Shown here: piece after piece, positions 3,490-59,397 of the stretch | Layout of the letters: every line of letters starts with the position of its first letter | Position numbering within the stretch: position 1 is the first letter of the stretch | Assembly (NCBI GenBank): GCA_027422505.1 | Contig: JAPQWV010000658.1 | Span: forward strand, 62,001-126,000 | From: Craterostigma plantagineum | Taxonomy: Eukaryota > Streptophyta > Magnoliopsida > Lamiales > Linderniaceae | Reading direction: 5' to 3' | DNA: 64,000 nt | Program-made: the position numbers and the translations under genes | The notes under the pieces: model-generated | The model's database searches: none | What the model was told of the DNA's origin: nothing | The model's input: only the letters and a program-made list of their open reading frames with translations

Positions 3490-5173
3490 TTGAAATCAAA
3501 CCTTAAAAACCAAAAACTTTTCGAAACTGAAATTGTAAAAGCCAAATATTTTAATCGATATTAAAAGTCAAATCAATAAACACGTCTACGATCAAAATAT
3601 CCAACCAAAATTTAGACTACAATAAAACATCATGGATCCAAATATAAAAATATTACAAGACCATGTAACAATCAATTTTAATTCGGCAGTGAGACATTAT
3701 GAAAAAAATAAGAATGAACTTGAAAATGTTAGAACACTCGAGGCTAAGATAGAAACCTTAGAAATTAAGGTTAAGGAACTTAGCAAAAATGCTGATGTAG
3801 TCCAAGTAGAGGAAAATCAGGATGCATGTAGAGGTAGAAATTCCATAGAAGAATGCAAAGTCAAACTAGAGTTAGAATTAAGACTAGCTAGTGCTCTCGA
3901 TATGATCTCTAGTCTTGAATCTAAGCTAGAAACTTCCGAATCTAACCTTATGAGCTCTAGTGCGAAAATAGATGAACTTAACTAAGAGCTCAACTCTTAG
4001 CAAGGCTAAGCATATTTCGTTAGAGAAGCATAGCTCGGTAGTCAAGGAATTAGAGGACAGGCTAGACAACAACCATAAATGTCTACTTAGAAATCTAGAC
4101 GAGAAAAGTCTTCTTAAATGTAGAATAGAAGGTGTGAACAAAAAGGTCACCAGTCTCGAAGCTCAAATAGAAAAATCTAATTCTAAGATAAGTGAGTTAA
4201 CTAAGAGTCTAGACACTTGTCAAGCCGAGAAGAGCACTGCTCAAAATAACTATGCTTTCTTAAGAGAAGAATGTGGGAAGCTCTATTCTAAGATTAATCA
4301 ATTAGTAAATCTTCTTGCGATTTCTAAGACCAAGGAAGCACAATCTCGTCATTACGAAAATTCTTTTCCGTCGATATACCTCCTATTCTTAAGAAAATTG
4401 AGGATTTAAATTCAACATTAGAAAGGGAAAGAAAGAATTTTGAAGCGGAAAAGAATGCGTTTTTATTGGAAATATCTAATTTCAAAGCTTCCTCACAAGA
4501 AAAGTAATCTTTAAGCAGGTTAAGAAAGATAAAGAGGCTTTGAGCGCTAGTAGATCAAATACTCCAATTTCTATAGCCGTTACTTCTACATGTTCGTTAA
4601 AGCCTATGAATTTTAGAAGTACAAACTTTGAAAGTGGCTCTGTCTCCACCAAGAAAATTTTTCACGAAAATAATTCAGATTCTAGCGCACAAACTTCATC
4701 GTGTGTTTCAAATGATTCTACTAACTTTTCACTTAAAAAGCCTAGACTTGAACATAATTTTTGAAATTCTAATTCTCATGTGAAAAATGTGCATTCTCCA
4801 CGTAGGAATTACGACAATTCTACTTTACATGTTTATCACTCTATTTGCTCGTATTCTTACAATAATATCCAGTCAATATTCGTTCCGAAAAGCATTTATT
4901 ATGACTGGGTACTGAGGAGACCTTTACAAGTACACATTCTAGGAGCACATATTCACATGCTAGGATTACTTATCCGTTTAAAATCAAGCAAAAATGGATT
5001 CCTAAGTCGGATATCAAGTCAGAAAGTCCTAGTCAAATATGGACTCCTAAGACTACATCTTCAGCCAACTTAGGCGCACAATCTAATTTTACACGATTTA
5101 CGACTAACTCAATTTCTGCTAATAAGGGAGGACCCATACGACAATGGGTACCAAAGTCCCGATAGTTTTGCAG
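3490..5173 (+). pseudogene. Copia copy A: coiled-coil linker region between gag and pol
   Basis: An ATG at 3632 opens a 117-codon reading frame, and after a frameshift near 3980 a second frame continues to 4409. Both are rich in E, K, L, S and N in heptad-like order (LEAKIETLEIKVKELSK; LEDRLDNNHKCLLRNLDEKS), which predicts a coiled coil. They match the coiled-coil segment of copy H (34340-35220) and of copy F on the other strand. The 3' end carries the conserved WVPK, a stop TAG at 5163-5165, then TTTTGCAG ending at 5173. This segment behaves like an intron that carries coding sequence. The gag and the 5' splice site of this copy are lost. Confidence 0.75.
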
Positions 5174-19600: not shown

Positions 19601-21290
19601 GGTGTCGTTAGGAACATATAGACATCTTCTATAATATAAGCTTCTGTCGTCATGTATTGTAAAGTCTGCTGATCTTTGTTCTGGTTGTACTTCTTTGATT
19701 TTCATATATAACTCGTCATTCTTCTGGCCCTTCGTAATCTATTCCATCAATGTGGGTCGAAGTGTTAACGCTGCAAGTCTTGTCTCAATCTCATCCATTT
19801 GTATCACTTCTACTTAAAGTCTTTGTAATTCTGTGTTCACAGTCTTGCGGCTTAGTGCATCAGCCACTACGTTCGTTTTTCCCGAGTGGTAACTAATTAC
19901 ACAATCATGGTCTTTAACCAATTCTAACCATCGTCTCTGCCTCATATTCAACTCCTTCTAGGTGAAGAAGTATTTGAGACTCTTGTGGTCAATGAAAATC
20001 TCACATCGCTCGCCGTATAGATAATGCCTCCAGATTTTGAGAGCAAAAATTACGGCGGCAAGCTCCATGTCGTGAATCGGATAGTTCTTCTCATAATCTT
20101 TGAGTTGTCGCGAGGCATATGCTACGATATTTCCATTCTGCATTAGGACACACCCTAGGCCGTTTTTAGACGCATCACTGTAGACAGAAAATCCTCCAGT
20201 GCCTGTGGGAATAGTTAACACTGGGGCCGTAGTGAGTCGTCGCTTAAGTTCCTGAAAACTCTGCTCGCAAGCGTCGTCCCATTGAAATGGAGTATTATTC
20301 TTTGTTAGCCTCGTCAGGGTTGATGCAATTTTGGAGAAATCTTTGATGAACTTCCGATAATACCCAGCTAGTCCGAGAAAACTTCGTATTTCCGTGACAT
20401 TCATCGGTTGAGGCTAGTTGTTAATAGCCTCGATCTTGCTGGGATTAACAGAAATTCCAGCTCCTGAGATAACGTGTCCGAGAAATGCGACTTGATTGAG
20501 CCAGAACTCGCATTTCTTGAATTTTGCATACAACTGCTTTTCTCGTACTATTTCCAATACGATCTTTAAGTGTTGTTCATGCTCCTCTTTGGTCTTCGAA
20601 TAGATGAGAATGTCATCGATGAATACGATAACACACTTATCTAGGAATGGCTTGAATACCCGGTTCATCAGGTCCATGAATGCTGCCGACGCATTAGTCA
20701 GCCCGAAAGGCATGACTAGGAACTCATAGTGCCCGTAGCAGGTACTGAAAGCCGTCTTCGGAATATCCTCTTCTCAGATTTTCAACTGATGATATCCCGA
20801 TCTTAAGACTATCTTCGAAATAACAGTTGCGCCTTGCCGTTGGTCAAATAAGTCATCAATTCGAGTGAGGGGGTATTTGTTCTTGATCGTAATCTTATTC
20901 ACTTCCCTATAATCGATGTAGAGCTGCATCGATCCATCTTTCTTCTTAACGAACAGAATTGGTTCTCCCTAGGGTGAGAAGCTCGACTGAATGAATCCTT
21001 TTTGTAACAATTCATCTAGTTGGTCCCTCAATTTCTTCAATTTAGCCGGGGCGAGTCGGTATGGTGCCTTAGAGATTGGTGCAGCTCCTGGTACTAGGTC
21101 AATTGTGAATTGGATCTCACGATCTGGCGGAAGTCCGAGTAAGTCTTCAGGAAACACTCGGGAAAATCTTGTACTACTGGAACTTCTTCTAGCTTTGGCG
21201 GTAAGCGTTCTTCGGATGATATTGCGAATATTAGGTAAGCTTCGCACCCGTCTTGATCAAACGATGTGCCTTCATTGCTGAAATCTTGGG
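19601..21290 (-). pseudogene. pol: Ty3 reverse transcriptase and RNase H, copy gypsy-2
   Basis: In order: [19 protein letters not shown], then the fingers region, [20 protein letters not shown], and the catalytic [10 protein letters not shown]. RNase H follows ([47 protein letters not shown]), then the link to integrase. In-frame stops lie at 20969-20971, 20773-20775, 20414-20416 and 19958-19960, each explained by one C-to-T or G-to-A change from the family codon (W, R, W, Q). The catalytic aspartates remain. There is also a frame change near 21250-21300. Confidence 0.92.
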
Positions 21291-21893
21291 AATCTGACCA
21301 CGCTTGCTACTTCCCATAAACGGGATTGGTTCGGTGTCTCCTAGGTTGAAGGTCACTTGCTTACGGTTACAGTCAATAACTGCTCCGTATTTCGATAGCT
21401 AGTCCATTCCGAGGATTACTTCATAATCGTTCATTGGAATGACTATCAGGTCCACGGGTAAGGTCCTATCGTTCACTATTACTTGGCTATCTCTTAAGAT
21501 TTGGTTGGTGCTCGTAGAGGTTCCATGTGGGATAGTAACATTGTATAAGTAGTTAACTAGGTTAGGCGTAACCCCGAGTCTCGCCACGTAGTTAGTAGAT
21601 GCAAATGAATGCGTGGCTCCTGAGTCAACTAATATGCATGTCGGGGTTGAATAGATTAGGAGAGTACCTGCCACCACAGACGGGTTGTTCTCCGCCTCCT
21701 CAGAAGTCAACGTGTAAACTCTAGCAGGTACCATATGCGGCCTAGTTTGAACAGGTGCTTGACTTCCAGACGCAGTCTCCGTGCATGCCTTGGAAAAGTG
21801 GCCTGTCTTGCCGCACTTAGAGCAGACTGCATTCTGAGAATAGCACACGCCCAGATGTCGTCGTGTGCACCTGGGACATGGGGGTATAGTCAT
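21291..21893 (-). pseudogene. pol: Ty3 zinc knuckle and aspartic protease, copy gypsy-2
   Basis: A 164-codon frame (21893-21399) has the nucleocapsid knuckle CSKCGKTGHFSKAC and the protease active site LVDSGATHSF. The flap and C-terminal side (VDLIVIPMNDYEVILGMD) follow. The frame ends in a stop close to the position where the first Ty3 copy continues WLS. The protease would cut the Gag-Pol precursor. Confidence 0.9.
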
Positions 21894-22385
21894 TGGAGGT
21901 CTTCCTTGATTAGGACTAAATTGTTGTGGGGGTCCAGGTCGGTTCTGGAAATTGGGTCGGGCATTCTTGGGGTTAAAGGGCTTCTTTGGGTTGCCTCCGC
22001 TCCATTTCGGTCCTTGAACGAACTTTCTCTTTGTTCTTGGGCTCGGATGATTCGGAGCTCAACTTGCTCCGCCATTAACGCTCGTTCCGCTACTTGAGCG
22101 TAGGTAGCTCCTTTAGATCCGGCCATGTTTACATCTCTGTATAGTTCAGGCTTCAGGCCTTCCAAGAAACGCTCTACCTTTAACGTATCCGTGCTCACCA
22201 TGTGAGCTGCAAACCGGGACAACTGCTCAAATTTCCTAATGTCCGCCACTATCATTGAGCCCTGTCGTAAATTGATGAATTCATTCATCCGTTGAGCTCG
22301 CATAGGGCCGATAAAGTACTTGCTTCGATAAAGCTCCTTGAATCGATCCCATGTCATCGTGATAGGGTCTTCAAAGGCGAGAATG
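21894..22385 (-). pseudogene. gag: Ty3 gag, 5' part missing, copy gypsy-2
   Basis: The reading begins abruptly at FEDPITMTWDRFKELYRSKYF and continues through EFINLRQGSMIVADIRKFEQL and FLEGLKPELYRDV, the Retrotrans_gag core. Upstream of 22385 the same frame reads Copia sequence from the antisense side, so the true gag start is lost at a junction with element F. The frame toward the zinc knuckle shifts near 21990. Confidence 0.88.
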
Positions 22386-22815
22386 GTCTTTGAAATTGAT
22401 ATGAGAGAGCCGCTGGTGCCAGAGATCGTTCTGATGTAGTGAAGCACGGAAGATTAGACATGTCGGTCGAACAGTCGTGAGATCAATGGAGGAGAGATTT
22501 ATCTTCTTGTGGCCCGTGAGTAGTTCCCTTCCATTGTCGTCGGTGACGCTACATTTATTAGTTTCAAAGTTCACCTCGTAGCCCTTATCGCAGAAGCGTC
22601 CAATACTGAATAAGTTGTAGCTCAGTCCTTCGACGTATGAGACCCCTTTGATGGTGAGTCTGTTATGGATTAGGTCCCCTGTACCTAGCATGATGCAGAT
22701 TGACCATTTCCGAAGTAGACCTTTCCTAGAAAACCCTCAGAAAGTTGCTCAACAGCTCTTTACTTCCGGTGATGTGCGTGGAGCAACCTGAATCTAAGTA
22801 CCACACATGACGGAC
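22386..22815 (-). pseudogene. pol: Copia element F: protease start and pre-integrase region
   Basis: After the splice-acceptor-like CAG (intron end 22816) the minus strand reads VRHVWYLDSGCSTHITG, with the protease DSG intact. The GAG-pre-integrase domain follows (LTIKGVSYVEGLSYNLFSIG, later LWHQRLSHIN). The sequence stops at a junction with Ty3 gag near 22385, so integrase, RT and RNase H are absent. The family is related to but clearly diverged from copies C, G and H. Confidence 0.85.
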
Positions 22816-25343: not shown

Positions 25344-26311
25344 GTGTTGGGAAGTCGAACTAAGTATATTGAGAGTATAATTAACTAAGTATAATTAACT
25401 TAAAATTGAGGAAGTCAGCAACACACCAGTGAATACGGGTTCTGACTCTCAAACACACCACGAGGAAGTCAAAGACGTTAATTATAAAAATTCTCTCTAA
25501 ATACCTCCTATTATAAAACAGATAGAGGAATCTCAAGCTGAACTAGATAAAGAACTACAGAAATTCGAAGCTGAAAAGAAAAAGTTTCTTAAAGAAATGG
25601 AAAATCTCAAAGCTTCCTCATCCTCCCAAGCTACCTCACACGCTAATATGAAAAGCATGAAAATTGAAAAATCGCCTTCAAAAGATAAAAAATGTAAAGA
25701 TAATTCTGTTATAAGTGCTATGACTAACTCTATGTCACCTACGTCTACAGGGAGCGTAGGGCTGGCACTGAAAACGAAGGCGAGAGTGTCTAGTATTAAG
25801 ATAAAGAAGGGGCAAGTAGAATTGATTGTTTCTAAGAATGTTACTCCTTCTGTTACAATAAAAGACACTCGTAGTAATAAAAGAGCCATTTCTACTATTA
25901 AGATAATTGCTTCTACTTGTTCACTTCAGCCTATCACCTTTAGAAGCGACAATTTCTAAATAGGCTCTACTTCAAAAATTGAGTCCCCCAAGCACCCTAG
26001 GAGATTATTAAAAGAAAAGATCTTTTCCTCGGTCAAACCTACCAAAGCATTTGTATGTGCTAAAATTAACCTTCCCTGCACGGTTCAACCCAAATGGGTT
26101 CCTAAATCACTGCCTAGGACGACAAAAGCCGAAAAGGCCAAGTCACCTAAAGAGGCAAAACCCAAACCCACTTCTCCGAAAGTTAAATGGGTTATTAAGA
26201 CTCCCTCAAGAAATAATTTAGGAATCATATCCGTACCTAAAACTATATCTGCTAAGCTGAGAGGACCCATGCTTAAGTGGGTACATAAAGCTCTCTAACT
26301 TGTTTTTGCAG
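25344..26311 (+). pseudogene. Copia copy G: 3' half of coiled-coil linker, with splice acceptor
   Basis: After a short junction (25344 to about 25420) the plus strand joins copy H sequence at about 35115. It reads AELDKELQKFEAEKKKFLKE (charged), a basic and serine-rich middle, and KPTSPKVKWVIKTP. The segment ends with the conserved WV-K-AL stop (TAA 26296-26298) and TTGTTTTTGCAG ending at 26311. The gag and 5' splice site of this copy are lost at the head-to-head junction with element F. Confidence 0.75.
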
Positions 26312-28012
26312 ATCCATCATGTGTGGTACCTCGACTATGGTTGCTCCACACACATTGACTTGAAATCAAGAGCAGCTGAGCAACTACAAAGATCAACCAA
26401 ATGGGAAAGTCAGATTCGGAAACAACGACTCAGCTCCCATTCTTGGATGTCGGGATATCATTTTGGAAATCTGACGATAAAAGATATCTTTTATGTCGAT
26501 GACCTCCACCATAACTTGTTCAGCATAGGCCAATTCTGTGATAAAGGATTTCAAGTGGTCTTTCACGCTGAACGGTGCAGAATTTTGGACAGTCAGGACA
26601 CAGAACTCCTCTACGGACTTCGGAAATCCAATCTTTACACAATCAACCTGACGTCTGTACGGCCCTCGACAGCTGTATGCCTCATCTCTCAGACTGTTTA
26701 CAGAGAACAGCTTATAGCATCAACGACTGTCTTATCTAAATATGAAAGCTCTCCAACACCTTTCTACGAAAAAGTTGGTCCACGGTCTTCCAACTATACT
26801 ACTACAAAGGGAGCATCAATGTTCGGCATGTCAATTAGGAAAAATGAAGCGAGCGTCTCATCATGTCAAGCAAATTACGTCTACTTCTCGCCCATTGGAA
26901 TTAATCCACATGGACCTCTGTGGGCCAATGCAGACACAGAGTATCAATGGACGCAAGTATGTGCTAGTTATCGTCGATGACTACTCTCGCTACACTTGGA
27001 CAAAATTCCTCCGAACCAAAGATGAGACTAGGGACTTGGTTATCAACTTTGTGAACACTACTCAGAATCTGCTGCAACAGACTATTCAAGTTATTCGAAC
27101 GGACAATGGCGCTGAGTTCAAGAATAAACATCTCAGTGAGTTTTATCAGAAACTTGGAATTAGTCAATAATTCTCAGCCGCAAAAACACCTCAACAAAAT
27201 GGGTCGTTGAAAGGAAAAATAGAACTCTAGTGGAAGCTGCACGTACAATGCTGATCCATTCCGGCCTTCCACACTTTCTTTGGGCTGAAGCAGTAAATAC
27301 CGTCTGTTTTACCCAAAATAGGACAATGGTTTACAAACGGTTCAACAAGACTCCGTACGAGATCGTAAACAAGAGAGTACCCAACATCTCATTTTTTAAG
27401 GTCTTCGGGTGCAAGTGCTTTGTGGCGAACGACAGAGCAACGTGCAAAGTTCGACCCTAAAGCATTCGAAGCAACTTTCGTCGGGTATTCTTCAACATCA
27501 AAAGCGTACCCAGTATATATCAAGTTCAACCGCACGATTAAGGAAAGCTATAACGTCACTTTTCACGAAGTGAACGAGATGGCTTCTAGGCACATCAGTC
27601 CAGGACCCGAGCCTAACCAGATGGCTCCTGTTCAAATCAATTCAGGACCCGTGCTCAAACAGTTGGCTTCTGAAGACAACATCTCAGAACCCGTATTCAC
27701 TGGTGTGTTGGCACAAAACCAACAGAAGATGGCAACAACTCAGCAATCAACGCCAGACGAAGCGTTAAGATTTGTGTTGGAAGACTTGGATTCCCTCTTT
27801 GAGCCTCTCACAGTCAATTATACACCCGACGAGGCCGATATTCCAAGTTCTTCAACAGTCCCTACCTCACCCAATTCAGAACTGCCTCAGAATAATGAAG
27901 AACCTACCGTGAGTGTTGAGGAAGAATCATCAGAGTCGCTCCCTCCCAGTGCAGATATGGAACTTCCTCACACAAATGAACAATCAGAGATCATTGGAAA
28001 CTAGACCCACAA
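26312..28012 (+). pseudogene. pol: Copia copy G: protease, integrase and connecting region
   Basis: It starts IHHVWYLDYGCSTH, where the protease DSG has become DYG. Next are the pre-integrase domain, the integrase zinc finger (HQCSACQLGK), and the core with D in LIHMDLCGPM, D in IRTDNGAEF, and the glutamate region V-ERKNRTLVEAA. A stop replaces glutamine at 27167-27169, a base is missing near 27201, and the TAG at 26711-26713 replaces a tryptophan that copy H keeps. The GKCFVAND-type end and a proline-, serine- and glutamate-rich connector to RT follow. Confidence 0.9.
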
Positions 28013-29672
28013 ATGGCTGATGCTTCGTCTTCAGCTTTGCCACATGAGCGCAAGTGGACTAGAGCTCATCCGGTTGATCAGATAATTGGCGATCCTTCGA
28101 GTGGAGTAAGGACACTACATCAACACAGTCTTTCAGCTGTTTTTAAGCCAAAACGAGCCTACCAAGGTAGCAGACGCACTACGAGACTCGGATTGGATAA
28201 TTGCGATGCAAGAGGAAATCAACCAATTCGAACGTCTTCATGTGTGGAAATTAGTACCCCGCCCGCATGGGAAGACTATCATTGGAACAAAATGGGTATT
28301 TAAGAACAAGAAGAATGAAGATGGCGAAGTGATCAGGAACAAGGCACGATTGGTTGCAAAGGGATACAACCAAAAGGAAGGCATTGACTACGACGAAACG
28401 TATGCTCCTGTTGCGCGAATTGAAGCCATTCGTCTCTTGTTGGCTTACGCGGCTCATAAAGACTTCAAGGTCTATCAAATGGACGTTAAAACCGCCTTCC
28501 TCAACGGCGTACTTAAAGAAGAAGTCTATGTCGCTCAGTAGATGGCTTCGTTGATCAAGAACATCTCGATCACGTCTATCGATTGGATAAAGCACTCTAC
28601 GGACTAAAACAACCCCCACGTGCTTGGTATGATGTCTTGAGTGAATTCCTCGTAATGTCTGGATTTATTCGAGGAACAATCGATACGACCCTCTTCATCA
28701 AATGGCAAGACAAAGATCTGATGGTCGTTCAAGTTTACGTCAACGACATCATTTTCGGTTCAATAAATCCACGGCTTTGCAAGAAGTTTGGAGATCTCAT
28801 GAAGAGTAAATTCGAAATGAGCCACATGGGAGAGATGCAATTCTTCCTAGGACTTCAAGTCAGACAGCTCAATGATGGAATATTTATTAGTCAAACAAAG
28901 TATATTAAGGACATTCTGAAAAAGTTCCATTTGCAAGCCTCTCAGCACTCCCATGTCAACAAGCTGCAAGTTGGATGCCTATCCCACAAGAAAATCTGTC
29001 GACATCACACTCTATCGCAGCATGATTGGATCTCTTCTCTACCTCACTTCTAGTAGGCCATATATCATGTTTGCCACTTGTCTTTGTGCCCGCTTCCAAG
29101 CCGATCCCAAAGAATCCCACATGCTCGCGGTGAAGCGCTTTGTTCGCTACCTTAAGGGCACATCTACCTTAGGGCTTTGGTATCCTAAAGGTACGAACTC
29201 CAAACTTATCGGCTATACTGACGCTGATTATGCAGGTTGCCGAATGGACAGGAAAAGCACCTCCAGTGGCACTCAATTTCTAGGGAAAAAGCTAGTCTGC
29301 TGGTCATCCAAAAAGCAAAATTATGTCTCAACTTCGATGGCGGAAGCCGAATACGTCACAGCCACCAGCTGTTGCTCACAAATGCTATGGATGCGGACTT
29401 AGCTTCGCGATTATGGGTACAATCTAAATAATATACCCATATATAGTGATAGCCAAAGTGCCATTGCGATTACGTGCAATCCTGTTCACCATTCACGCAC
29501 GAAACACATAGACATTAGATATCACTTTATCAAATATCACGTAGAAAAAGGCACCATTGACATGTACTTTGTAAGTACGGAGCATCAACTAGCTGACATT
29601 TTCACCAAGGCATTGGATGAGAAGCGATTCCAATTCCTTGTCGGAAAATTAGGCATGTTGAATCTTCCGTGA
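28013..29672 (+). pseudogene. pol: Copia copy G: reverse transcriptase and RNase H
   Basis: RT begins near [19 protein letters not shown] and includes [33 protein letters not shown] and DKALYGLKQPPRAWY. The catalytic box, YVDD in copy H, is YVND here. A two-base loss near 28539 and another break near 28940-28980 shift the frame. RNase H follows ([25 protein letters not shown], then SQSAIAI-CNPVHHSRTKHID). The pol stop codon is at 29670-29672. This is the fullest Copia pol end in the window. Confidence 0.92.
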
Positions 29673-33088: not shown

Positions 33089-34285
33089 ATGGATGCATAC
33101 TCACTAGGAAATGACAATCGTCCGCCGATCTTGCAACGCAGCGAATATACAGTTTGGAGAAGTCGCTTCCTAAATTTCATAGCCTTGAAAGATCAAGCCG
33201 AAAACCTGCTAAAGTCACTCAAAGAAGGGCCCGCACAATTCTGGGTCACTGTAGCCGACGATGACACGATTACTCCTCATATTCCCGCTGCTAGGCGACT
33301 GAAGGAGCCTAGGGAATATTCCATCGAGGAAAGGGCCCGCGCTAAGGCAGATCTAATAGCCATGAACACACTCATGCAGGGCATCCCCAACGACATCTAT
33401 AGACAGATAGACAGCCTCCCAACGGCTAAAGAAATGTGGGATGAACTGCATAGAATGATTCAAAGGACGGAAGTGGGCATCAAGGCCAAAAAGGCCAATA
33501 TTCTCACGGCTTATGACTCATCCAAAGTAAAGCCGGAGGAGAGCCTATATGACGTATATCAAAGGTTCCTCACCCTTCTTAATGAGATGAGGAAAATAGA
33601 AATCTCTAAGACAAACATGGAAACAAACATAAGATTTCTATCCTCCCTGCCCTCAGACTGGAAAAAAGATATCCACTCAACTTAGGCAAAACAAAGATTT
33701 GGAGGAGTTGGATATCCATGCAGTCTTTGACAATCTCGCCCAACATGAGGAAGATATTTGCGAGATTCAGAAGGAGCAAAAGGGCAAGCAGATTGAAGAC
33801 ACTGTTGCCCTTGTCTCAGAGAAGAGTGGAACAAGGTCTCGTCAAGAGAAGATTGTTAGGCATGCCTCCCCATCAGAGTCAGAAGAAGATTCCGAGACAG
33901 ACGATGAGCCAAGCATGAAAGCACTGGGGAAGCAGTTGGCATCAGCAAATTGATAAGCAAGACGTACTTCAAAAAGAAGTCCTCATCTTCGGCCAACCGA
34001 CTTCGGACCTCAAGCTCTACAAATAAAGAAGATGCACCTGAGAGCTCCGAAATCAAAAACACCAAAGAGCCTAACAAGTGCTTCAACTGGGGCAAGCCCG
34101 GTCATTTCAAGTTTCAAAGCAGAAGGAAGCTGGAGTAGCCCTCATGGCAGAGCAGGACCACTGGCTCAAAGACACGTCCAACTCAGAAGAGGAGAATTAG
34201 CCCTCATTGCCCGCTTGGACGACACCCTGGATGCCGAACTTCAAACCAGACGGACGATGACGACGCATCCATCCCATCACAAGAG
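33089..34285 (+). pseudogene. gag: Copia copy H gag
   Basis: ATG at 33089 (MDAYSLGNDNRPPILQR). The capsid domain of UBN2 type runs 198 codons (RSEYTVWRSRFLNFIALKD, AMNTLMQGIPNDIYRQIDSL, ILTAYDSSKVKPEESLYDVY, RFLSSLPSDWKK). Frameshifts near 33670 and 33945 break the frame. The zinc knuckle is damaged: CFNWGKPGHFKFQS keeps one of three cysteines. The reading ends ...DDDDASIPSQE at 34285, where a GT begins the intron-like segment. Capsid and nucleocapsid functions are known for the family. The boundary interpretation is mine. Confidence 0.9.
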
Positions 34286-36078
34286 GTAGTCTCTTCTTCC
34301 ACATTATTGACCATATTAGAATCATATAAAAACAATATGCTAACATGACGTGAGCAGAAAAGTATTAAGGAAGTAGAGGATAAACTTTCGAGGTCTCAGG
34401 AGAAGATAGACATTCTCGAATCAGAACTTAGAAGCTCTAGTGCTAAAATTGAAGAAATTACTAAGAGCCTACATTCTAGAGAGACTAGTCAACCTCAGAC
34501 AGGACAGCATAGCGAAAAGATTAAGGAATTAGAAGATAGGCTAGCAAATAACTACAATTGTTTGGTTAGGAATCTCAATGAGAAAGCCACATTAAATTGT
34601 AGGATAACCGAAACTACCACTAAGATCACTAACTTGGAAACTCAATTAGAAATATATAATGCTAAGGTTAGTGAGCTTAGTAAAGAACTAGATGCCTGTC
34701 AAGCCGCCAAACTGACGGTAGAAAATAATTATGCTCTCCTAGGTGAGGAACGCAAGAAACTATATGCAAAAATTAAGAAATTAGATGATATAGTCACGCG
34801 TATGGGACAATCCGAACAGATGATATTCCTAAATCAGCCCAAGGATGTAGACTTCTATAATCCAAAGGAAGGCTTAGATTTCACTAACCCACGTGTTCTA
34901 CGGAAGAAAGAAATATATGATATTAAGCACATGGGTTTAGGAGTAACCTGTCTTAGAGATTTTACTGAATCGACGTACCAAAATACTTTCGATTCATCCA
35001 TGAGAAAAGCCTCACACGGGCCTGAAATCCCCCTTGAGTACACATCACTAAATGAAAGAGACAGAAATATGAAACCATCATTATCACCTGTCTCTGACTT
35101 ACTTCAACTTCCTGACCCTCAAAGAGTCCACGAGGAATCCAAAGACGTTAATTATAAATATTCTCTTTACATACCTCCCATAATAAAACAGATAGAGGAA
35201 TTCTCAAGCAAAATTAGATAATGAAAGAGAGAATTTCGAAGCTGAAAAAAAAGTTCTTAAAGGAGATGGAAAATCTTAACACTTCCTCATCCTCCCAAAC
35301 TACCTCTCAGGCTATTATGGAAAGCGTGAAAAATCAAAAAATCACCTTCGAAAGATCAAAAGTGCATTAATAATTCTGTTAAAATAGCTAAGCCTAAATC
35401 TATTTACCCACGTCTACAGGGCGCGTAGGGCAAGCACTAGAATCGAAGGCGAGAGTGTCTAGTCTTAAGAAGGAGCTAGTGGATTTGAGTATGCCTAACT
35501 CCTGTACAAATAAATGACACTCGTAAAAATAAATGAGCCATCGTTTCAAATAATTGCTTCTACATGTACTCTACAGCCTACCATTCTTAGAAGTACTAAT
35601 TTCGAAATTGGCTCTACATCTAAAGCTAAACATAATCATTCGGAAACAAATGCCACAAGGAAGACCCGTAAGAAACAAGATCCAGCCATAAAGAAAGCTT
35701 ATGGCGCTGTACATGCCTGTTCTCACCTAAGGTATCTCGTAAAGATTGAGTCCCCAAAGCACCTTAGGAGATTATCAAAAGAAAATATCTTTTCCTCGGT
35801 AAAACCTACCAAAGCATTTGTACTTGCTGAAATTAACCTTCCCTGCAAGGTTCAACCCAAATGGGTTCCTATATCTCCGCCTAGGACGAGAAAAACCGAA
35901 AAGGCCAAGTCACCTAAAGAGGCAAAACCCAAACCCACTTCTCCGAAAGTGAAATGGGTTATTAAAACTCCCTCAAGTAAAAATTTAGGAATCATATCTG
36001 AACCGAAAACTATATCTACTAATCTGAGAGGACCCATACTTAAGTAGGTACCTAAAGCTCTCTAACATGTTTTTGCAG
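34286..36078 (+). other. Copy H: intron-like coiled-coil segment with GT...AG borders, 1793 bp
   Basis: It starts GAG|GTAGTC and ends ATGTTTTTGCAG|ATCCATCATG. The first codons continue the gag frame (VVSSSTLLTILESYKNN), meet one TGA near 34348, and go on in the same frame through a coiled coil (EVEDKLSRSQEKIDILESEL; LEDRLANNYNCLVRNLNEKA) to 35221. A basic region follows, then a stop TAA at 36063-36065, thirteen bases before the CAG. Pol after the CAG is in a different frame from the coiled coil but in phase with the codon GAG at the donor. Copy C lacks precisely this segment. F has the same borders, and A and G the same 3' border. Confidence 0.75.
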
Positions 36079-37375
36079 ATCCATCATGTGTGGTATCTCG
36101 ACTCAGTTTGCTCCGCACACATGACTGGAAGTCACGAGTTGCTGAGCAACTACAAAGACCGACCAAACATCAAAGTCATATTCGAAAACAATGATTTAGC
36201 TCCCATTCTTGGATGCGGGGATATTATCTTGTCTAATCTAACGATAAAAGATGTCTCTTAGGTCGAAGGCCTCCGCCATAACTTGTTCAGCATAGGCCAA
36301 TTCTGTGATAAAGGATTTCAAGTGGTCTTCCATGCTGACCGGTGCAGAATTTTGGATAGTCAGGACACAAAACTCCTCTATGGACTTCGGAAATCGAATC
36401 TTTACACGATCAACCTGACGTCCGTGCAGCCCTCGACAGCTGTATGCCTCATTTCTCAGACTGTCATACAGAGGAACAGCTTATGGCATCAATGAATGTC
36501 TCATCTGAATATGAAAGCTCTCCAACGTCTTTCTACGAAAAAGTTGGTTCAAGGTCTTCCAACTATACTACTACAAAAGGAGCATCAATGTTCGGCATGT
36601 CAATCAGGAAAAATGAAGCGAGCGTCTCATCATCTCAAGCAAATCGCATCTACCTCTCGCCCATTGGAACTAATCCACATGGACCTCTGTGGGCCAATGC
36701 AGACACAGAGTATCAATGGACGCACACGTGCTAGTTATCGTCGATGACTTCTCTCGCTATACTTGGACAAAGTTCCTCCCAACCAAAGATGAGACAGGGG
36801 AATTGATTATCAACTTTGTGAACACTACTCAGAATCTGCTGCAACAGACTATTCAAGTTATTCGAACTGACAACGGCACTGAGTTCAAGAATAAATACCT
36901 CAGTGCATTTTATCAGAAACTTGGAATTAGTCAACAATTCTCAGCCGCAAAAACACCTCAACAAAATGGGGTCGTTGAAAGGAAAAATAGAACCCTAGTG
37001 GAAGCCGCTCGTACAAAGCTGATCCACTCCAGCCTTCCACACTTTCTTTGGGCTGAAGCAGTAAATACCGTCTGTTTTACACAAAACAGGACGGTGGTTC
37101 ACAAACGATTCAACAAGACTTCGTACGAGATTGTTAATAAGAGAGTACCCAACATATCATTCTTTAAAGTCTTCGGATGCAAGTGCTTTGTGGCGAACGA
37201 CAGAGAGCAACTAGCAAAATTCGACCCTAAAGCATTCGAAGCAACTTTCGTCGGGTATTCTTCAACCTCAAAAGCGTACCGAGTATACATCAAGTCCAAC
37301 TGCACGATCATGGAAAGCTATAACGTCACTTTTCACGAAGTGAATGCGATGGCTCTTGCACACCTCAGTTCATGA
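36079..37375 (+). pseudogene. pol: Copia copy H: protease and integrase
   Basis: It starts IHHVWYLDSVCSAHMTG (DSG changed to DSV). The pre-integrase domain has stops near 36259 and 36496. The integrase zinc finger HQCSACQSGKMK is followed by the core with D in LIHMDLCGPM, D in IRTDNGTEF and E in NGVVERKNRTLVEAA (frame 36689-37375), ending in the FGCKCFVANDREQ and YNVTFHEVN region. The frame shifts near 36720. The catalytic D, D and E are all visible. Confidence 0.9.
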
Positions 37376-38638
37376 CCCGTGCCAAACCCGATGGCTTCTG
37401 AACAAACCAGTTCAAGACCCGCGCTTAACCCGTCGGCTTCTAAAGACAACATCTTAGAGCCCGTATTCACTGGTGTGTTGGCACAAAACCAACAGAAGAT
37501 GGCAACAACTCAGCGATCACCGCCAGATGAAGCGCTAAGACTTGTGTTAGAAGACTTGGATTCCCTCTTTGAGCCTCTCACCGTCAATACTATACCCGAT
37601 GAGGCCTATGTACCAAGTTCTTCAACAGTCCCTACCTCACCCGATTCAGATTTGCCACAGCACATTGAAGAACCTACCATGGGTGTTGAGGAAGAATCAT
37701 CAGAGTCGCTCCCTGCCAGTGCAGATATGGAACTTCCCCACACAAATGAACAATCGGACCCACAAATGGCTGATGCTTCATCTTCAGCTTTGCCACATGA
37801 GCGCAAGTGGACTAGAGCTCATCCGGTTGATCAGATAATTGGCGATCCTTCGAGCGGAGTAAGGACACGACATCAACATGGTCTTTTTAGCTGCTTCTTA
37901 AGTCAAAACGAGCCTACTAAAGTAGCAGACGCACTACGAGACCCGGATTGGATAATTGCAATGCAAGAGGAAATCAACCAATTCGAACGTCTTCAAGTGT
38001 GGAAATAACCCCGTCCGCATGGGAAAACTATCATGGGGTCAAAATGGGTATTCAAGAACAAGAAGAATGAAGATGACGAAGTGATCCGGAACAAGGCACG
38101 ATTAGTTGCCAAGGGATACAACCAACAGGAAGGCATTGACTACGACGAAACGTATGCTCCTGTTGCCCGAATTGAAGCCATTCGTCTATTTTTGGCTTAC
38201 GCGGCTTATAAAGACTTCAAGGTCTATCAAATGGATGTTAAAACCGCCTTTCTCAATGGCGTACTTAAAGAAGAAGTCTATGTCGCTCAACTAGATGGCT
38301 TCGTTGATCAAGAACATCCCGATCACGTCTATCGATTGGATAAAGCTCACTATGGACTAAAACAAGCCCCACGTGCTTGGTATGATGTCTTGAGCGAGTT
38401 CCTCGTAATGTCTGGATTTATTCGAGGAACAATCGATACGACCCTCTTCATCAAATGGCAAGACAAGGATCTGATGGTCGTTCAAGTTTACGTCGACGAC
38501 ATCATTTTCGGTTCAACAACACGACTTTGCAAGAAGTTTGGAGATCTCATGAAGAGTAAACTCAAAACGAGCCACATGGGAGAGATGCAATTCTTCATAG
38601 GACTTCAAGTCAGGCAGCTCGATGATGGAATATTTATC
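37376..38638 (+). pseudogene. pol: Copia copy H: connector and reverse transcriptase, 5' part
   Basis: A proline-, serine- and glutamate-rich connector leads into RT ([20 protein letters not shown]). A stop follows at 38006-38008, then [34 protein letters not shown] and the intact catalytic [10 protein letters not shown]. The reading is cut after DDGIFI at 38638 by insertion of element C and resumes at 51063. Confidence 0.92.
38634..38638 (+). repeat. Target-site duplication TTATC, left copy
   Basis: TTATC directly precedes the 5' LTR of element C and is repeated directly after its 3' LTR at 51063-51067. RT of copy H reads on across the two flanks if the insert is skipped. Confidence 0.95.
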
Positions 38639-38984
38639 TGTAGAATACCATTTCTAATTCTGCTTGATTTTATTAGTTGTTCTTGTAATTTGGGGCGTTT
38701 TGTGTAGTAGTCCTTAGATTAGGACTAGTTTGATATTTATACCGAGCTTGTTTGGTATATATACATGTAAAGAAATTGTGCTGAAAAAAGTTTGAAGATT
38801 GATCCGAAAGGCTTGCAATTCAATTTCTAGAGAGAGAAGCAACAGTAACTTTCTCACTCTACTTGAATTCTGTCTCTCGTTCTTCAAATGAGTTTTTCGA
38901 TCGAATCTTAGTGATTATCATTATCGTCGAATTACTTTGAATTCTTGCCTAGGATCTTAGATTTGTTAATCGTAGGACCTAACA
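38639..38984 (+). repeat. 5' LTR of element C, 346 bp
   Basis: Starts TGTAGAATACC and ends GACCTAACA. TATA-like TATATATAC at about 38757-38765 follows the short inverted repeat ATACC / GGTAT. No related full LTR except 50714-51062 (partner) and 52536-52887 (element D, inverted). Confidence 0.97.
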
Positions 38985-40059: not shown

Positions 40060-41316
40060 ATGGATGCATACTCGCCCGGAAATGACAACCGTCCGCCGAT
40101 TTTGCAACGAGGCGAATATACCGTGTGGAGAAGCCGCTTCCTAAATTTCATCGCTCTAAAAGATCAAGCTGAAAATCTACTGCAGTCTCTTGAAGAGGAC
40201 CCGGCACAATTCTGGGTCCATGTACCCGGAGATTGAATAGCTACTCCTCCAATTCCACCTTCTAGTCGACTAAAGGAGCCTAGGGAATACTCTCTAGAGG
40301 AAAGGGCTCGAACTAAGGCTGATCTAGTAGCCATGAATACCCGCATGCAGGGCATCCCCAATGACATATACAGACAGATTGATAGCCTTTCATCGGAAAA
40401 AGGAATGTGGGATGAACTGCATAGGATGATGCAGAGGACGGAAGTTGGCATAAAGGCCAAAAACGCTAACATTCTCACTTCTTATGACTCCTTCAAAGCA
40501 AAGCTGGAGGAGAATCTATACGAGATCTACCAAATATACATCACTCTTCTCAACGACATGAGGAAGATAGAAATCACAAAGACCAATATGGAGACAAACA
40601 TCAAATTTCTATCTTCTCTGCCTGCGGATTGGAAGAAAATATCCACTCAGATTCGACAAAATAAAGATCTAGAGGGAGTTGGATGTCCATGCCGTGTTTG
40701 ACAATCTCGCACAGCATGAGGATGATATCAGCGAGGTTGCCAAAGAGCAGAAAGGCAAACAGACCGAAGACACTGTTGCCTTAGTTTCGGAGAGGAGGAG
40801 CTCAAGATCAAGAAAGGAAAAGATCGTTAGGCCTCCTTCACCTTCAGAGTCGGAAGAAGAGTCAGACTCCGATGTTGAGCCAAATTTGAAAGCTCTAGGA
40901 AAGCAGTTAGCTCTCATAGGACAAATGATGAGCAAGAAGTACTTCAAGAAGAAGTCTTCAACCTCAGCCAACAGACTTCGGACTACAAGCTCTAAAAACA
41001 AAGAACATGCACCAAAGAACTCCGAAGTCAAGAACCCTAAGGAGGCTAACAAATGCTTCAATTGTGGCAAGCCAGGTCACTTCGCCAGAGAGTGCACTCT
41101 TCCAAAGAAATAGATGCCAACTACTACTCCAGGAAGCTCCAATTGACGAAACAGAAGGAAGCTGGAGAGCTCTCATGGCCGAACAGGACCAATGGCTCGA
41201 GCACGTCGAGTTATGAAGAAGAGAATCTAGCTCTCATGGCCCGTCTCGACAATGAATCGGACGCCGAAACATCTAATCGTACGGACGACGACAACGCATC
41301 CACTTCGTCAAAAGAG
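40060..41316 (+). pseudogene. gag: Element C gag
   Basis: ATG at 40060 (MDAYSPGNDNRPPILQRGEY). The capsid follows family order but carries a stop TGA at 40234-40236, an extra base near 40676 and a frame change near 41105. The nucleocapsid zinc knuckle CFNCGKPGHFAREC is intact. The reading after the knuckle (ARLDNESDAE, then DDDNASTSSKE) runs at 41316/41317 straight into the protease sequence IHHVWYLDSG with no intervening segment, unlike copies F and H. Confidence 0.92.
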
Positions 41317-42578
41317 ATCCATCATGTGTGGTACCTCGACTCTGGTTGCTCCACACACATGACTGGTAATCAAGAGCTACTGAGCAGCTACAAAGACCGA
41401 CCAAACGGCAAAGTCAGATTCGGAAACAATGACTCAGCTCCACTTATTGGATTTGGAGATATCATTCTGGAGAAACTGACAATAAAGGATGTCTCGTATG
41501 TCGAAGGCCTCCACCATAACTTGTTCAGCGTAGGCCAGTTCTGTGACAAAGGGTTTCAGGTGGTCTTTCATGCTGACTGGTGCAGAATTTTGGATAGTCA
41601 GGACATAGAACTCCTTCAAGGACTTCGCAAATCCAATCTTTACACGATCAACCTGACGTCCGTGCGGCCCTCGACAGCTGTATGCCTCATCTCTCAGATT
41701 GATTTACTGAGGAACAGCCTATAGCATCAACGACTGTTTCATCTGAATATGAAAGCTCTCCAACGTCTTTCTACAAAAAAGTTGGTTCACGGCCTTCCAA
41801 CTATACTACTACAAAGGGAGCATCAGTATTCGGCATGTCAATTGGGAAAAATAAAGCGAGCATCTCATCACGTCAAGCAAATTGCGTCTACTTTTCGACC
41901 ATTGGAACTCATACACATGGATCTCTGTGGGCCGATGTAGACTCAGAGTATCAATGGAAGAAAGTATGTGCTAGTGATCGTTGATGACTACTCTCGCTAC
42001 ACGTGGACAAAGTTCCTCCGAACCAAAGATGAGACCGGTGACTTGATTATCAACTTTGTGAACACTACTCAAAATCTGCTGCAACAGACTATTCAAGTTA
42101 TTCGAACAGACAACGGCACTGAGTTCAAGAACAACCACCTCAGTGCGTTTTATCAGAAACTTGGAATAAGTCAACAATTTTCAGCCGCCAAAACACCTCA
42201 ACAAAACGGGGTCGTTGAAAGGAAAAACCGAACACTAGTGGAAGCAGCTCGTACAATGCTGATCCATTCAGGACTTCCGCACTTTCTATGGGCTGAAGCA
42301 GTCAATACCGCCTGTTTTACCCAAAACAGGACAGTGGTTCACAAACGGTTCAACATGACTCCGTACGAGATTGTGATCAATAGAGTGCCCAACATCTCAT
42401 TCCTTAAAGTCTTCGGGTGCAAGTGCTTTGTGGCGAACGACAGAGAGCAACGTGCAAAGTTCGACCCTAAAGTATTCGAAGCAACTTTCGTCGGGTATTC
42501 TTCAACATCAAAAGCATACTGAGTTACATCAAGTCCAACCGAACAATTAAGGAAAGCTATAATGTCACTTTCCACGAA
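41317..42578 (+). pseudogene. pol: Element C protease and integrase
   Basis: Protease active site LDSGCSTHMTG is intact. The pre-integrase domain is followed by a TAG (41721-41723) in place of tryptophan. In the integrase zinc finger, the first CxxC cysteine is tyrosine (HQYSACQLGK). The core has D in LIHMDLCGPM, D in IRTDNGTEF and E in NGVVERKNRTL. Stops TAG (41938-41940) and TGA (42520-42522) replace codons kept in copies G or H. Function would be processing and integration, but not from this damaged copy. Confidence 0.92.
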
Positions 42579-43407
42579 GTGGCAGATATGGCTTTTGGTC
42601 ACTTCAGTCCAGGACCCGTGCCTAACCAGATGGCTCCTGCACAACTCAGTTCAGGACCCGTACTTAACCCGTTGGTTTCTGAAGACAACATCTCAAAACT
42701 CGTAATCACTGGTGTGTTGGCACAAAACCAACAGAAGATGGCAACAACTCCGAATTCAACGTCATAAAAAGCAACGAGACTTGTATTGGACGATTTGGAT
42801 TCTCTCTTCGAACCAGTATATCGGTCATGCAGTGCTACACCTACAGTGGATTCCCCACCCGACGATACCGATGTACCAAGTTCTTCTCACATCTCTGCCC
42901 CACCCGATTCAGAATGCCAAAGAATAACGAAAACCTATAGTGGTCATCGAGGAAGTATTATCAGAGACGATCGATCAAAGTGCAGTATTGGAACTTCCTC
43001 AAAATGATCAATCGAAGACTATAGGAAATCTAGACCCACAGATGGCTGACGCATCGACTTCAGCCTTGCCTCATGAGCGCAAGTGGACTAGAGGTCACCC
43101 GGTTGATCAGATAATTGGCGATCCTTCGGATGGAGTGAGGACACATCGTCAACACAGTCTATTTAGTTTCTTCCTGAGCCAAAACGAGCCTACTAAGGTA
43201 GCAGACGCACTACGAGACCCGGATTGGATAATTGCGATGCAAGAGGAAATCAACCAATTCGAACGTCTTCAAGTGTGGACCTTGGTACCCCGTCTACATG
43301 GGAAAACAATAGTCGGAACTAAATGGGTATTCAAAAACAAGAAAAATGAAGATGGTGAGGTGATCCGGAACAAAGCAAGGCTAGTTGCAAAGGGATACAA
43401 TCAACAG
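42579..43407 (+). pseudogene. pol: Element C connector and first part of reverse transcriptase
   Basis: A proline- and serine-rich connector has frame breaks near 42766 and 42930. RT starts with [20 protein letters not shown] and [20 protein letters not shown] and ends in [12 protein letters not shown] at 43407. The palm with the YVDD box, the thumb and RNase H are deleted. The join contains filler DNA (43408-43436), and the sequence resumes in the post-pol spacer. Confidence 0.9.
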
Positions 43408-47183: not shown

Positions 47184-50100
47184 ATGGATCGCTACCCTCG
47201 ATACAATCACATATACGACCACAATTTAAATATGAAGGACCAGGATACAAACTTCCAGCTCGATCTGAGCACCATTCGATGCCCAGACGAGATCATTGTC
47301 TCTATCCTGCGAGGCCATCCCATCTGGCACGCATTGACGGTCACCACCTCTGTACCAATGGTCTATCTCCAGCAATTCTGGGGATGTATACAAGGAGCTG
47401 TAGCGAATGGAGCAGTCTCCTTCACAACGAGAATCGGGACACGGCATATTCATATGGACAAGAACCAGTTCGGGATGATACTGGACTTTCCATACAGCGC
47501 AAATTACGACCCGCTCCCGTCGGATGCATAAATGGTCCATGACTTCATGCAAATGGGATATCAACCATAGCTCACCAAGTTAGCTCAGGTCCAGAGCAGC
47601 GGTATCCCTCACCCCTGGAAGACACTGTTCGGGATTGTGAACAAGTGTCTATCACCCAAGCATGCTGGCTTCGACAAGGGCAACGGCAATATAATGCGAA
47701 TCTTTCACGGACTCGCTTTCTCCAGAAATTACGATTTCGCGCAGCTGATCTGGAATGATCTGGCTGAACAGATTCGGCTGAAGGAGAATCGGAGATCGAA
47801 GAACGTACCCTATGCTCGATGGTTCAACGTGATCATCAGGGAGTTCATGGAGTTACACACGGAGAATATCCCTCAGCTGCCTCCCGGAGGAAACTATCAG
47901 CCACCAAGGCTAAAGTTCTTCATAATCCACGGCTCACGGACTTGGATCAACCGCCGATGCAGATTCCACTCAACCTACTCAGGCTCGCCGACCCCGCGGG
48001 AGCTGAGTATCAGAGATTCTGCCGGGGACACAATCTAACCGAGCAAATGATCAGAGGGCCCCTGGCAGATGTACATGTGAGCCCTCCCCAACCGGAACAC
48101 CAACCAAGCCCTGACGACGCGATGATAGATGTTGTCGCTCAGGAGCTTTAACAGGGGTGGGTCTCCTTTGGTCGAAGAGCCAATGCCTGACGTAGATGAC
48201 ACCCTAATAGACGTCGTGGCTACTGAGATGGCGCTTGAGGCTCCTGCACATGAATATCAAGAGGAAGTGCCCGTACATGTAGGCGTGCTCGAAGAAACCA
48301 TTGAGGAGATTTTTCAACCAGTAGCACAGCCCGAGGTCGAAATGGGACAAAGCTCTCTTCCACTAATGACGGATCAGGCATTGGAGGACGTCGATCGTGA
48401 CCCCACTCCTCACACAGCCACCCCGTCTGACACGGAGTCTAACGAGGAAATAAGCCTGATAAGGAGGACTCCCAGGAGACATAGCATTCAACTGGAGTCC
48501 CTCTTTCCGGCCGTCACCATCGCACCAGATACTATGCTGACCACATCTACAAGTGTCGCTGGCACTTCTTCGCTCAATCTTGAGCCGCAACCAAATCTCG
48601 TGGTGTCTGGTTCGCAGGCGCAACCTGAGCCTGCCATAACACCCATAGAGGCAAATCTTCAAGATTCGACTCGAGGATTGGGTGGAAGTCTCATACAGTC
48701 ACAACCTCAAGTGACTGTGAGCCAACCTGAAGTCGGTGACTTCTCAAGGGTTGATAACAGGCGACATCAGTCGTCCTGGTCCATCCAAGGAGGCATCCGC
48801 ACCCTTTGTGACGAACGAGCAGTTCCAGGCCACTCTCTCTGCCGCTGTACAATCCACGGAAGACAAAATCATGGAGAGAGTACTCCAAGCCATCGAGACA
48901 TACCGAAGAGATACCGAGAAAGCACCTGTCTCAGAAGGCCCTTCGTCACAAACCAATCCCACCTCCACAACCCACACCCACCGACCCTTTAGCCACTTCC
49001 TCCATCCTCATCAACCCATACACTTTACCGATAACCGAGCTCCACGACATATTACTCGCCCGCTTGATCGGCCTTTCCATCCGGTCGCCGCAAGAAGAAT
49101 CCCTTTATCGGCGATTGGTGGATAACCCTGAGCCACCGACTAAAACTTGCCGAGGCCAAAGCTCCCACTCACGGCACAGACATGACGATCCTGACGATCA
49201 GGACCATCATGAGGGGGAGAAGAGGCCAAGGACATCAACAGCTGGCCAAGGACAAGGCTCGGGCGCTACGCAGACAAGCGCTGGAGCTGGTGAAACCAAA
49301 ACCCAAACCCCAACCCAAACACAAACCACCCACACCATGCACCGCACCGCCACTCTACCACATATCGACCTACCAACCTTCACCCTACGGACGCCTCCGC
49401 CCACACCGCCGATCTACTCAAGCCCCTTGCTTCCGGAAGAATAAGCAAGTGCAGCAATGCTTGTGGCCCTAGCAGCTACCCAAGCTACTCCCTCAGTCGC
49501 TCCAGTCCAACCGGGCCCCTCAGGACATAGCGTCAATCCACACGAGGTCCTAGATAAATACATCTTCGAAGGACAGGATGACCCATTCCATGCCCGATGA
49601 GCATCAGAGACAACGGCTTCAGGACGTCCGACACTTCTTACAACAAGCATCCTTGGACCTCATTATCATAGAAGACGACGAACTTCTGGAAGGCGAAGAC
49701 TATCAAAGAGACATCCCAAGGCTACCAGAGTTGATCGCACAACGAACGGTGTCCCCCACCAGACAGATGCCAGGGACCGTTCGGATCGACACGCCATGGG
49801 AGAACCTCCGTATAGAGATACCTTTCCCTGAAGAAGTCAGGGAAAACATTTGGAGGTCACCGGATAAAGTCAAGAAGCCGAATGAGTTTGAGCTGAGAGG
49901 GATCTCTCACTGGGATCAGCAGAAGAGGATGACTTATCTATGGATGCTGACCCAACTAGGACCAGGCGTAAGGCTGGGGATTCCGAAGGACTGAACAGTC
50001 ACTTCATGGAACTCTCCCCGATATGCCAACTCCTCAGTGTCTACTGTGCAAAAGGAGGACTTCCATCACCTCACTACGTTATTGAGCGAGTGGACAGAAC

Positions 50101-50713: not shown

Positions 50714-51062
50714 TGTAGAATACCATTTCTAATTGTGCTTGATTTTATTATTTGTTCTTGTAATTTGGGGCGTTTTGTATAGTAGTCCTTAGATTAGGAC
50801 TAGTTTGATATTTATACCAAGCTTGTTTGGTATACATACATGTAAAGAAATTGTGCTGAAAAAAAGTTTTGAAAATTGATCCCGAAAGGCTTGCAATTCA
50901 ATTTCTAGAGAGAGAAACAACACTAACTTTCTCACTCTACTCGAATTCTCTCTCTCGTTCTTCAAATGAGTTTTTCGATCGAATCTTATTGATTATCATT
51001 ATCGTCGAATTACTTTGAATTCTTGCCTAGGATCTTAGAGTTGTTAACCGTAGGACCTAACA
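50714..51062 (+). repeat. 3' LTR of element C, 349 bp
   Basis: TGTAGAATACC...GACCTAACA, partner of 38639-38984 at about 96 percent identity by eye. The inverted repeat TATACCAA (50813-50820) / TTGGTATA (50827-50834) is perfect here. Target duplication TTATC follows. Confidence 0.97.
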
Positions 51063-52535: not shown

Positions 52536-52887
52536 TGTTAGGTCCTACGATTAACAACTCTATGATCCTAGGCATGAATTCTAAGTAATTTGATGATAAT
52601 GATCGACATTGAATTTCGATCGAAAAACTCAAATGAAGAACAAGAGACAGAATTCGAGTAGAGTGACAAAGTTACTATTGTTTCTCTTTCTATAAATTGA
52701 ATTGCAAGCCTTTCGGATCAATTTTGAAAACTTTCTCTATTCAGCACAATTTGTTTACATGTATTTATGCCAAACAAAACTTGATATAAATATCAAACTA
52801 GTCCTAATCTAAGGACTACTATACAAAACGCCCCTAATTACAAAGACAACTAATAAAATCAAGCACAATTAAAACATATACTCTACA
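52536..52887 (-). repeat. 3' LTR of minus-strand Copia element D, 352 bp
   Basis: On the minus strand it starts TGTAGAGTAT and ends GGACCTAACA. It is homologous to the LTRs of element C, in inverted orientation. The adjoining GCATG (52531-52535) may be one target duplication, but the other end of D is lost. Confidence 0.93.
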
Positions 52888-59383: not shown

Positions 59384-59397
59384 TCATCCCCCCTTAA
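59384..59397 (-). promoter_or_regulatory. Polypurine tract of Ty3 element gypsy-3
   Basis: On the minus strand, AAGGGGGGATGA directly precedes the LTR start. Further upstream is the TTTCGGGGACGAAATTCTT signature common at the 3' end of such Ty3 elements. Confidence 0.85.

Follow-up and report, generated by a model that had tools for sequence, protein, structure and literature searches.

A probable coding intron separating gag from protease in a Copia retrotransposon family of Craterostigma plantagineum

A Copia retrotransposon family of C. plantagineum carried a protein-coding segment bounded by GT and AG between gag and protease, and this segment is probably a coding intron that can be retained or spliced, in which case unspliced RNA would give Gag plus a coiled coil and spliced RNA would give Gag-Pol. 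The segment of one copy (copy H) was exactly missing from a second copy (copy S) in the window, by which we mean the whole 64,000-nt stretch that was analyzed, and at 225 junctions in the genome. Repeated exact loss is the trace expected from reverse transcription of spliced RNA, and the segment is therefore most likely a retained or spliced intron.

Results

The family of copy H belongs to the Copia superfamily, with the Copia domain order of gag (33089), protease (36079), integrase (approximately 36728), and reverse transcriptase (38033) in copy H itself, and the ORF of copy H at 33089-33685 matched PF14223 (Pfam, E 1.8e-15). The donor border read ...CATCACAAGAG/GTAGTCTC at 34285/34286 and the acceptor border read TTTTTGCAG/ATCCATCATGTGTGG at 36078/36079, and the borders that the original prediction had named, GAG/GTAGTC and TTTTTGCAG/ATC, were thus present. 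As the donor directly follows the codon GAG and the protease frame opens with ATC, the exons would join in phase 0, which was borne out in the letters of copy H and in other copies of the genome. The frame of copy H was decayed, with stops inside the segment (TGA at 34346-34348, another at 35219-35221, and TAG at 36045-36047), changes of frame after 35219-35221, and further frameshifts within gag, and so copy H by itself cannot prove the coding-intron reading. The prediction that the gag frame stays open through the donor into the coiled coil failed for the decayed copy H and held for L024.

Table 1. Positions of the elements and of the putative intron in the window
Feature	Position	Strand	Basis or remark
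Copy H gag exon, Retrotran_gag_2, frame damaged	33089..34285	+	tblastn, ORF/Pfam
Copy H putative coding intron (retained or spliced), GT...AG, 1793 nt	34286..36078	+	sequence, exact absence in copy S and at 225 junctions
Putative 5' splice site GAG/GTAGTC	34286..34291	+	GT in 27/27 alignable loci of 40
Putative 3' splice site TTTTTGCAG/ATC	36070..36078	+	12-mer genome count
Coiled-coil open stretch, 219 aa, in the gag frame at the donor	34562..35221	+	ORF, helix model
Open stretch, C-terminal part of segment, 177 aa	35514..36047	+	ORF, homology
Copy H pol exon, cut by insertion of copy S	36079..38638	+	homology, LTR analysis
Another copy, 3' part of segment and pol	25442..28887	+	acceptor at 26311/26312
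R2, divergent relative, equivalent segment	22816..24293 (R2 as a whole 25325-22742)	-	homology
R1, degraded relative	3632..5173 (R1 as a whole 3632-5252)	+	homology
Copy S (intronless), 5' LTR	38639..38984	+	95.4% identical to 50714-51062
Copy S gag exon, ends TCAAAAGAG	40060..41316	+	sequence, homology
Copy S pol, joined straight to gag, GAG^ATCCATCATGTGTGG	41317..43407	+	match ends near 43.4 kb
Copy S 3' LTR	50714..51062	+	purine-rich tract before it

Two relatives in the window, R1 and R2, shared a layout similar to that of copy H. In R2 (protein identity of 54% in gag and 37% in the coiled coil), the donor read CTGGAG/GTATAC and the acceptor TTTATTTGGCAG/GTCCGTCATGTGTGG, with a TGA ending 12 nt before the border; the GT and AG borders were kept despite the low identity of the coiled coil. 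The coiled-coil part of R1 ended in WVPKSR and a stop, followed by TTTTGCAG/AATT ahead of a protease remnant, and no donor was identified in this degraded relative.

Several other features of the window were observed. ORFs resembling a Ty3/gypsy element by eye (zinc knuckle, protease, and reverse transcriptase motifs) lay at 19958-22447 on the minus strand, directly adjoining the truncated pol of R2. Positions 19828-42543 recurred inverted on the same contig at approximately 136-166 kb (L052-L054) with 99.3-99.7% identity, indicating that the contig carries a large inverted duplication or joined haplotypes; near position 34106, close to the zinc knuckle, copy H differed from its inverted duplicate (L053) by a few dozen bases. 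A block at 56785-64000 and in L051 was repeated at a spacing of approximately 4.6 kb and approximately 98% identity, and the stretch directly downstream of the window resembled this block at approximately 98%.

Beyond the window, the acceptor 12-mer TTTTTGCAGATC was present at 4343 exact places in the 1.71-Gb genome, compared with 186 for the reversed control, and seven of the first eight places cut out were family members, L001 being the exception. Forty loci of 4.8 kb around the acceptor were fetched, all from one contig (C1) and all selected by the exact acceptor, so that AG in these loci is the selection pattern itself; AG was also present in R1 and R2. GAG/GTA was located 1.72-1.87 kb upstream of the acceptor in 23 of the 40 loci. 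The remaining 17 did not have it at the expected distance and 13 of these had no alignable donor region, which counts against an intron. When loci were aligned without a fixed distance, the donor column was GT in all 27 alignable loci of the 40, six query pieces for this alignment having been picked by GAGGTA.

Copy S sits inside the reverse transcriptase of copy H, which resumes at 51063, as determined by comparison with the copy at 25442-28887. It was flanked by a target-site duplication, TTATC (38634-38638 and 51063-51067), it encoded a zf-CCHC domain (Pfam), and its 5' LTR was followed by TTGGTATCAGAGC, which we take to be the primer-site motif. The LTRs, the TTATC duplication, and the primer-site motif indicated that copy S came through reverse transcription. 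At 41316/41317, the junction read TCAAAAGAG^ATCCATCATGTGTGG without the segment, the letters expected after exact removal of the GT...AG segment, and the simple reading is that the segment was lost from copy S before insertion. The interior of copy S is now interrupted, and long inverted repeat arms, 76-90% complementary, were observed at 48165-55429, partly between its LTRs. An intronless copy in L052 was considered as a second independent case and was rejected, as it lies in the inverted duplicate of the window and is 99.7% identical there.

Exact gag^protease junctions were found in the genome in several subfamilies, with AGAG^ATCCATCATGTGTGG at 107 places (copy S and its L052 duplicate both among them) and [CGT]GAG^ATCCATCATGTGTGG at 118, for a total of 225; both reversed controls gave 0. 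Intronless copies were selected by the exact junction, and the count thus covers exact junctions, with inexact deletions falling outside it. Together with the acceptor counts (4343 against 186 in the reversed control), these counts (225 against 0) excluded chance borders. The junctions amounted to approximately 5% of the acceptor matches (225 compared with 4343), the two patterns differing in stringency; TGCAGATCCATCATGTGTGG is the acceptor pattern of stringency equal to that of the junction patterns. Of 40 junctions fetched from the 225, 39 were genuine. The exception was L090, in which the junction letters stem from a mutated acceptor, so that L090 is intron-bearing. L078 kept only 27 nt of alignable gag, and the remaining 38 loci had a gag-like frame up to the junction; L073 and L088 aligned only partly, and L094 not at all, to the intron-bearing gag set. 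The intronless set comprised 41 rows, namely the 40 fetched loci (L090 included) and copy S. Of these, 17 were free of stops over 590 nt, and the joined exons placed gag and protease in one frame.

The exon ends of intronless copies tended to follow the subfamily. An intron-bearing copy matched over more than 250 nt in 36 of the 41, and among these the fourth base before the junction agreed in 32 and all of the last four exon bases in 17. Intronless copies ending in TGAG matched TGAG intron-bearing copies in every case (11/11), those ending in AGAG matched either AGAG (5) or AGAA (15, all one copy, L027), and those ending in GGAG matched GGAG in one case of five, the four disagreeing ones having distant matches. 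Copies with TCAAATGAG^ reached 98.75% identity to the intron-bearing L012, and those with CCTCATCACAAGAG^ were 92.8-96.0% identical to L023 or L011. On the gag and pol sides, respectively, identity was 0.967 and 0.900 between L060 and L023, and 0.942 and 0.860 between copy S and L027, and in several intronless copies the nearest intron-bearing copy differed between the two sides. This is the pattern that recombination or sparse sampling would give, and it counts against the intron.

The differing kin on the two sides bear on a very unlikely alternative, in which DNA deletion produced the intronless form on one or a few occasions, after which recombination or template switching carried it into other subfamilies. 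Retroelement RNAs recombine, the AG common to both borders allows the junction to be placed in three ways, and some intronless copies cluster together in the gag tree, all of which would suit such a spread. However, the letters beside the junction mostly matched the local subfamily, including the fourth base described above and the TATCT that follows the junction in L067 and L068 as it does in L023 (TACCT in L060), and L082 was 98% identical to the intron-bearing L029 on the gag side and on the pol side. The gag tree also spoke against deletion and spread. It was built from 400 nt of 37 intronless and 27 intron-bearing copies (64 of 69 rows, leaving out L090, L078, L073, and L094 of the intronless set and the intron-bearing L047); 16 state changes were needed, of which well-supported branches forced at least eight, and holding the intronless copies together as one clade was rejected (AU p 6.7e-72). 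L037, L039, and L088 had long branches in this tree. The number of state changes does not equal the number of splicing events, as a change may be a gain or a loss and the state can be transferred by recombination. Two earlier trees, which kept 23 of 25 and 39 of 43 rows, nested a single intronless copy among intron-bearing copies on both sides; another kept 42 of 52 rows, and its looser donor rule misplaced some rows. Some clustered intronless copies may descend from other intronless copies. L055, L059, L066, L069, and L071 formed a cluster in the gag tree (93/72) that held no intron-bearing copy, as would be expected if an intronless copy had proliferated on its own.

The segment codes for protein in the gag frame and is under purifying selection. 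In L024, 600 codons were open from the donor to a TAA ending 13 nt before the border, the distance that the original prediction had given for copy H, and the frame was continuous with 200 open gag codons upstream; a segment open over 600 codons was found in this one copy of 23. In L029 and L048, the open gag frame that runs to the donor comprised 444 and 445 codons, respectively. In nine inter-subfamily comparisons of L024 (with L023, L009, L011, L044, L015, L034, L013, L039, and copy H), which are not independent because all share L024 as partner, segment dN/dS was 0.33-0.41 in the gag frame, compared with 0.83-1.05 and 1.19-1.61 in the other frames, and stop-bearing codons numbered 0-4 in the gag frame compared with 60-104 in the others. 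Nearer copies gave segment values of 0.60-0.69 (L012, L021, L048), 0.44 (L010), and 0.39 (L014) against L024. Constraint on gag was stronger than on the segment (dN/dS of 0.08-0.24 in eight of the nine comparisons); the ninth, L039, was badly aligned and gave 0.85. A non-coding intron was ruled out by the frame-specific dN/dS.

Single-sequence structure prediction modeled the 219-aa open stretch of copy H as one helix of 82 residues, with pLDDT of 88-97 in the first seven ten-residue blocks and 78 in the eighth, and with low confidence in the remainder of the model. Neither the 219-aa nor the 177-aa stretch had a Pfam match at E 0.001.

A stop was found 14-18 nt ahead of the protease border in all 41 rows (the 40 loci and copy H). 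It started 16 nt before the border in 34 rows, holding one fixed frame relative to protease. In L034-L037, which are near copies of each other, it lay at 18 nt and shared the frame of protease, as the closing stop of R2 also did, and in L011, L019, and L020 it was in the third frame. Splicing tolerates such variation in frame (34, 4, and 3 of 41), and a fixed frameshift does not; a programmed frameshift as the sole route to Pol was consequently disfavored. More generally, ribosomes could continue from Gag plus coiled coil into Pol by translational recoding (+1 shift or bypass of the stop), with intronless copies as side products that play no role in expression. We consider this improbable. The fixed frame in most rows and a protease frame that is free of stops for some codons ahead of the acceptor would fit recoding, and for Sireviruses, whose Gag carries a zinc knuckle and a coiled coil and whose pol is often at +1, the available part of PMC2829016 proposes bypass or internal entry. 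The frame relation was nevertheless not conserved, as L034-L037 and R2 on one hand and L011, L019, and L020 on the other attest, and recoding leaves the GT and AG borders and the 225 exact junctions across the tree unexplained.

Two properties of the segment count against the intron that we favor. The donor GTAG is presumably weak compared with the plant consensus GTAAGT, though a weak donor beside a good acceptor would fit partial splicing. The segment was also A-rich and not T-rich (T fraction of 0.25, compared with 0.17 in the 5' exon and 0.25 in the 3' exon), and plant introns, as described in the portion of PMC3735527 at hand, differ from this composition.

Proteins of other plants gave a mixed picture. 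A search with the coiled-coil part alone found no homologues. With L024 gag plus coiled coil as the query, five proteins were found (two from Arctium lappa, two from Tanacetum coccineum, and one unnamed), and with P0002 as the query, 26 including itself, 24 of them from Arctium. Of 30 proteins, 21 were aligned, and E-V or D-V occupied the place of the donor in 14 of the 20 aligned Arctium proteins. The gene models of four more (P0008, P0018, P0020, and P0022) left Gag exactly after the conserved E; rejoining at protease was seen in none of these four, with P0008 rejoining within the coiled-coil region, and this counts against the intron. The original prediction had named relatives with the segment continuous in frame with pol as the contrary case, and the proteins divided on it. 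Eight from Arctium (P0002, P0006, P0009, P0010, P0012, P0014, P0016, and P0023) ended near WVPK or LVPK without a protease, while five gene models, P0001, P0007, P0008, and P0018 from Arctium and P0028 from Tanacetum, joined the coiled-coil region, whole or in part, to protease in a single chain (the layout of P0007 and P0028 was read by eye) and count against a coding intron. These five would suit the idea that Gag-Pol simply includes the segment in this lineage and that its GT...AG borders are accidental, an idea that we find scarcely credible: a stop preceded the protease border in all 41 rows, exact excision at the borders recurred on the tree, and the one-chain proteins are gene models that may have introns. 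In view of the one-chain models, the polyprotein may originally have included the coiled coil as one of its ordinary parts.

Discussion

The coding segment, the 225 exact junctions, and the repeated change of state supported the prediction that unspliced RNA would give Gag with a coiled coil and spliced RNA Gag-Pol, splicing being inferred from DNA. By this mechanism, the spliceosome would remove the segment from part of the transcripts. Translation of unspliced RNA would yield Gag with a coiled-coil tail, and translation of spliced RNA would yield Gag-Pol, with Gag shared by both proteins and the coiled coil probably acting in structural Gag only. Spliced RNA would at times be packaged, reverse transcribed, and inserted, giving rise to intronless copies.

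The prediction had also described this logic as opposite to that of known elements, which agreed with a comparison to BARE1, Drosophila copia, and Arabidopsis EVADE and did not extend to Ogre. In BARE1, copia, and EVADE, according to the available text of PMC3735527, PMC12786077, and PMC8892269, spliced RNA yields Gag alone and unspliced RNA yields Gag-Pol. These elements share with the copy H family the Copia superfamily and, as far as those texts describe, splicing near gag and protease or of pol that balances Gag against Pol. The family of copy H differs in that its spliced RNA would yield Gag-Pol; a Gag-only spliced product of the BARE1, EVADE, and copia type does not fit, as the joined exons fuse the gag and protease frames. 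For Ogre, the accessible part of PMC6317226 describes an intron spliced from a subset of transcripts, allowing the entire polyprotein to be made, which resembles what the copy H family would do. Ogre, however, has the Ty3/gypsy domain order, whereas integrase precedes reverse transcriptase in the copy H family, and its separating region averages 274 bp in that account, compared with approximately 1.8 kb for the coding segment that lies between gag and protease here. What is new is the long coding intron; spliced RNA for a full polyprotein is already known from Ogre. Among the matches listed for the open-licence literature, titles and abstract openings gave no pointer to Copia elements in which a coding intron separates Gag from protease.

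Within Copia, Sireviruses are described in the available part of PMC2829016 as having an enlarged Gag with a zinc knuckle and a predicted coiled coil downstream, and pol is often out of frame with gag. The zf-CCHC of copy S and the long modeled helix downstream of gag in copy H resemble this layout. Sirevirus LTRs average 1.28 kb, compared with 0.35 kb for copy S, the one copy to which this figure applies, and that part of the source describes no intron. Bianca, another Copia element, has two ORFs with a gap averaging 172 bp (PMC6317226, part available); the gap differs from the copy H segment in length and content, and no coding intron is described for Bianca there.

A broader picture is possible, if less than probable. 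A Copia lineage may have turned the coiled coil of its Gag into an intron, so that full-length RNA would make structural Gag without enzymes and the enzymes would come from spliced RNA, which would repeatedly enter particles and found intronless copies. The E-V or D-V that Arctium proteins have at this position suggests an old and widespread arrangement, which may be the missing expression route of further Copia elements that have a coiled coil and an out-of-frame pol.

A standing question about plant LTR elements is how they produce Gag in quantity but Pol sparingly, and a coding retained intron would be a simple answer. Keeping or removing the segment would decide between a coat protein and a coat-plus-enzyme protein. 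If the reading is true, the Copia logic of spliced RNA for Gag is reversed, two forms of Gag with different tails exist, and numerous splicing events have left a fossil record in the genome. The exact intronless junctions would then be a natural retrotransposition reporter, which could be used to gauge the frequency of packaging and copying of spliced RNA in each subfamily.
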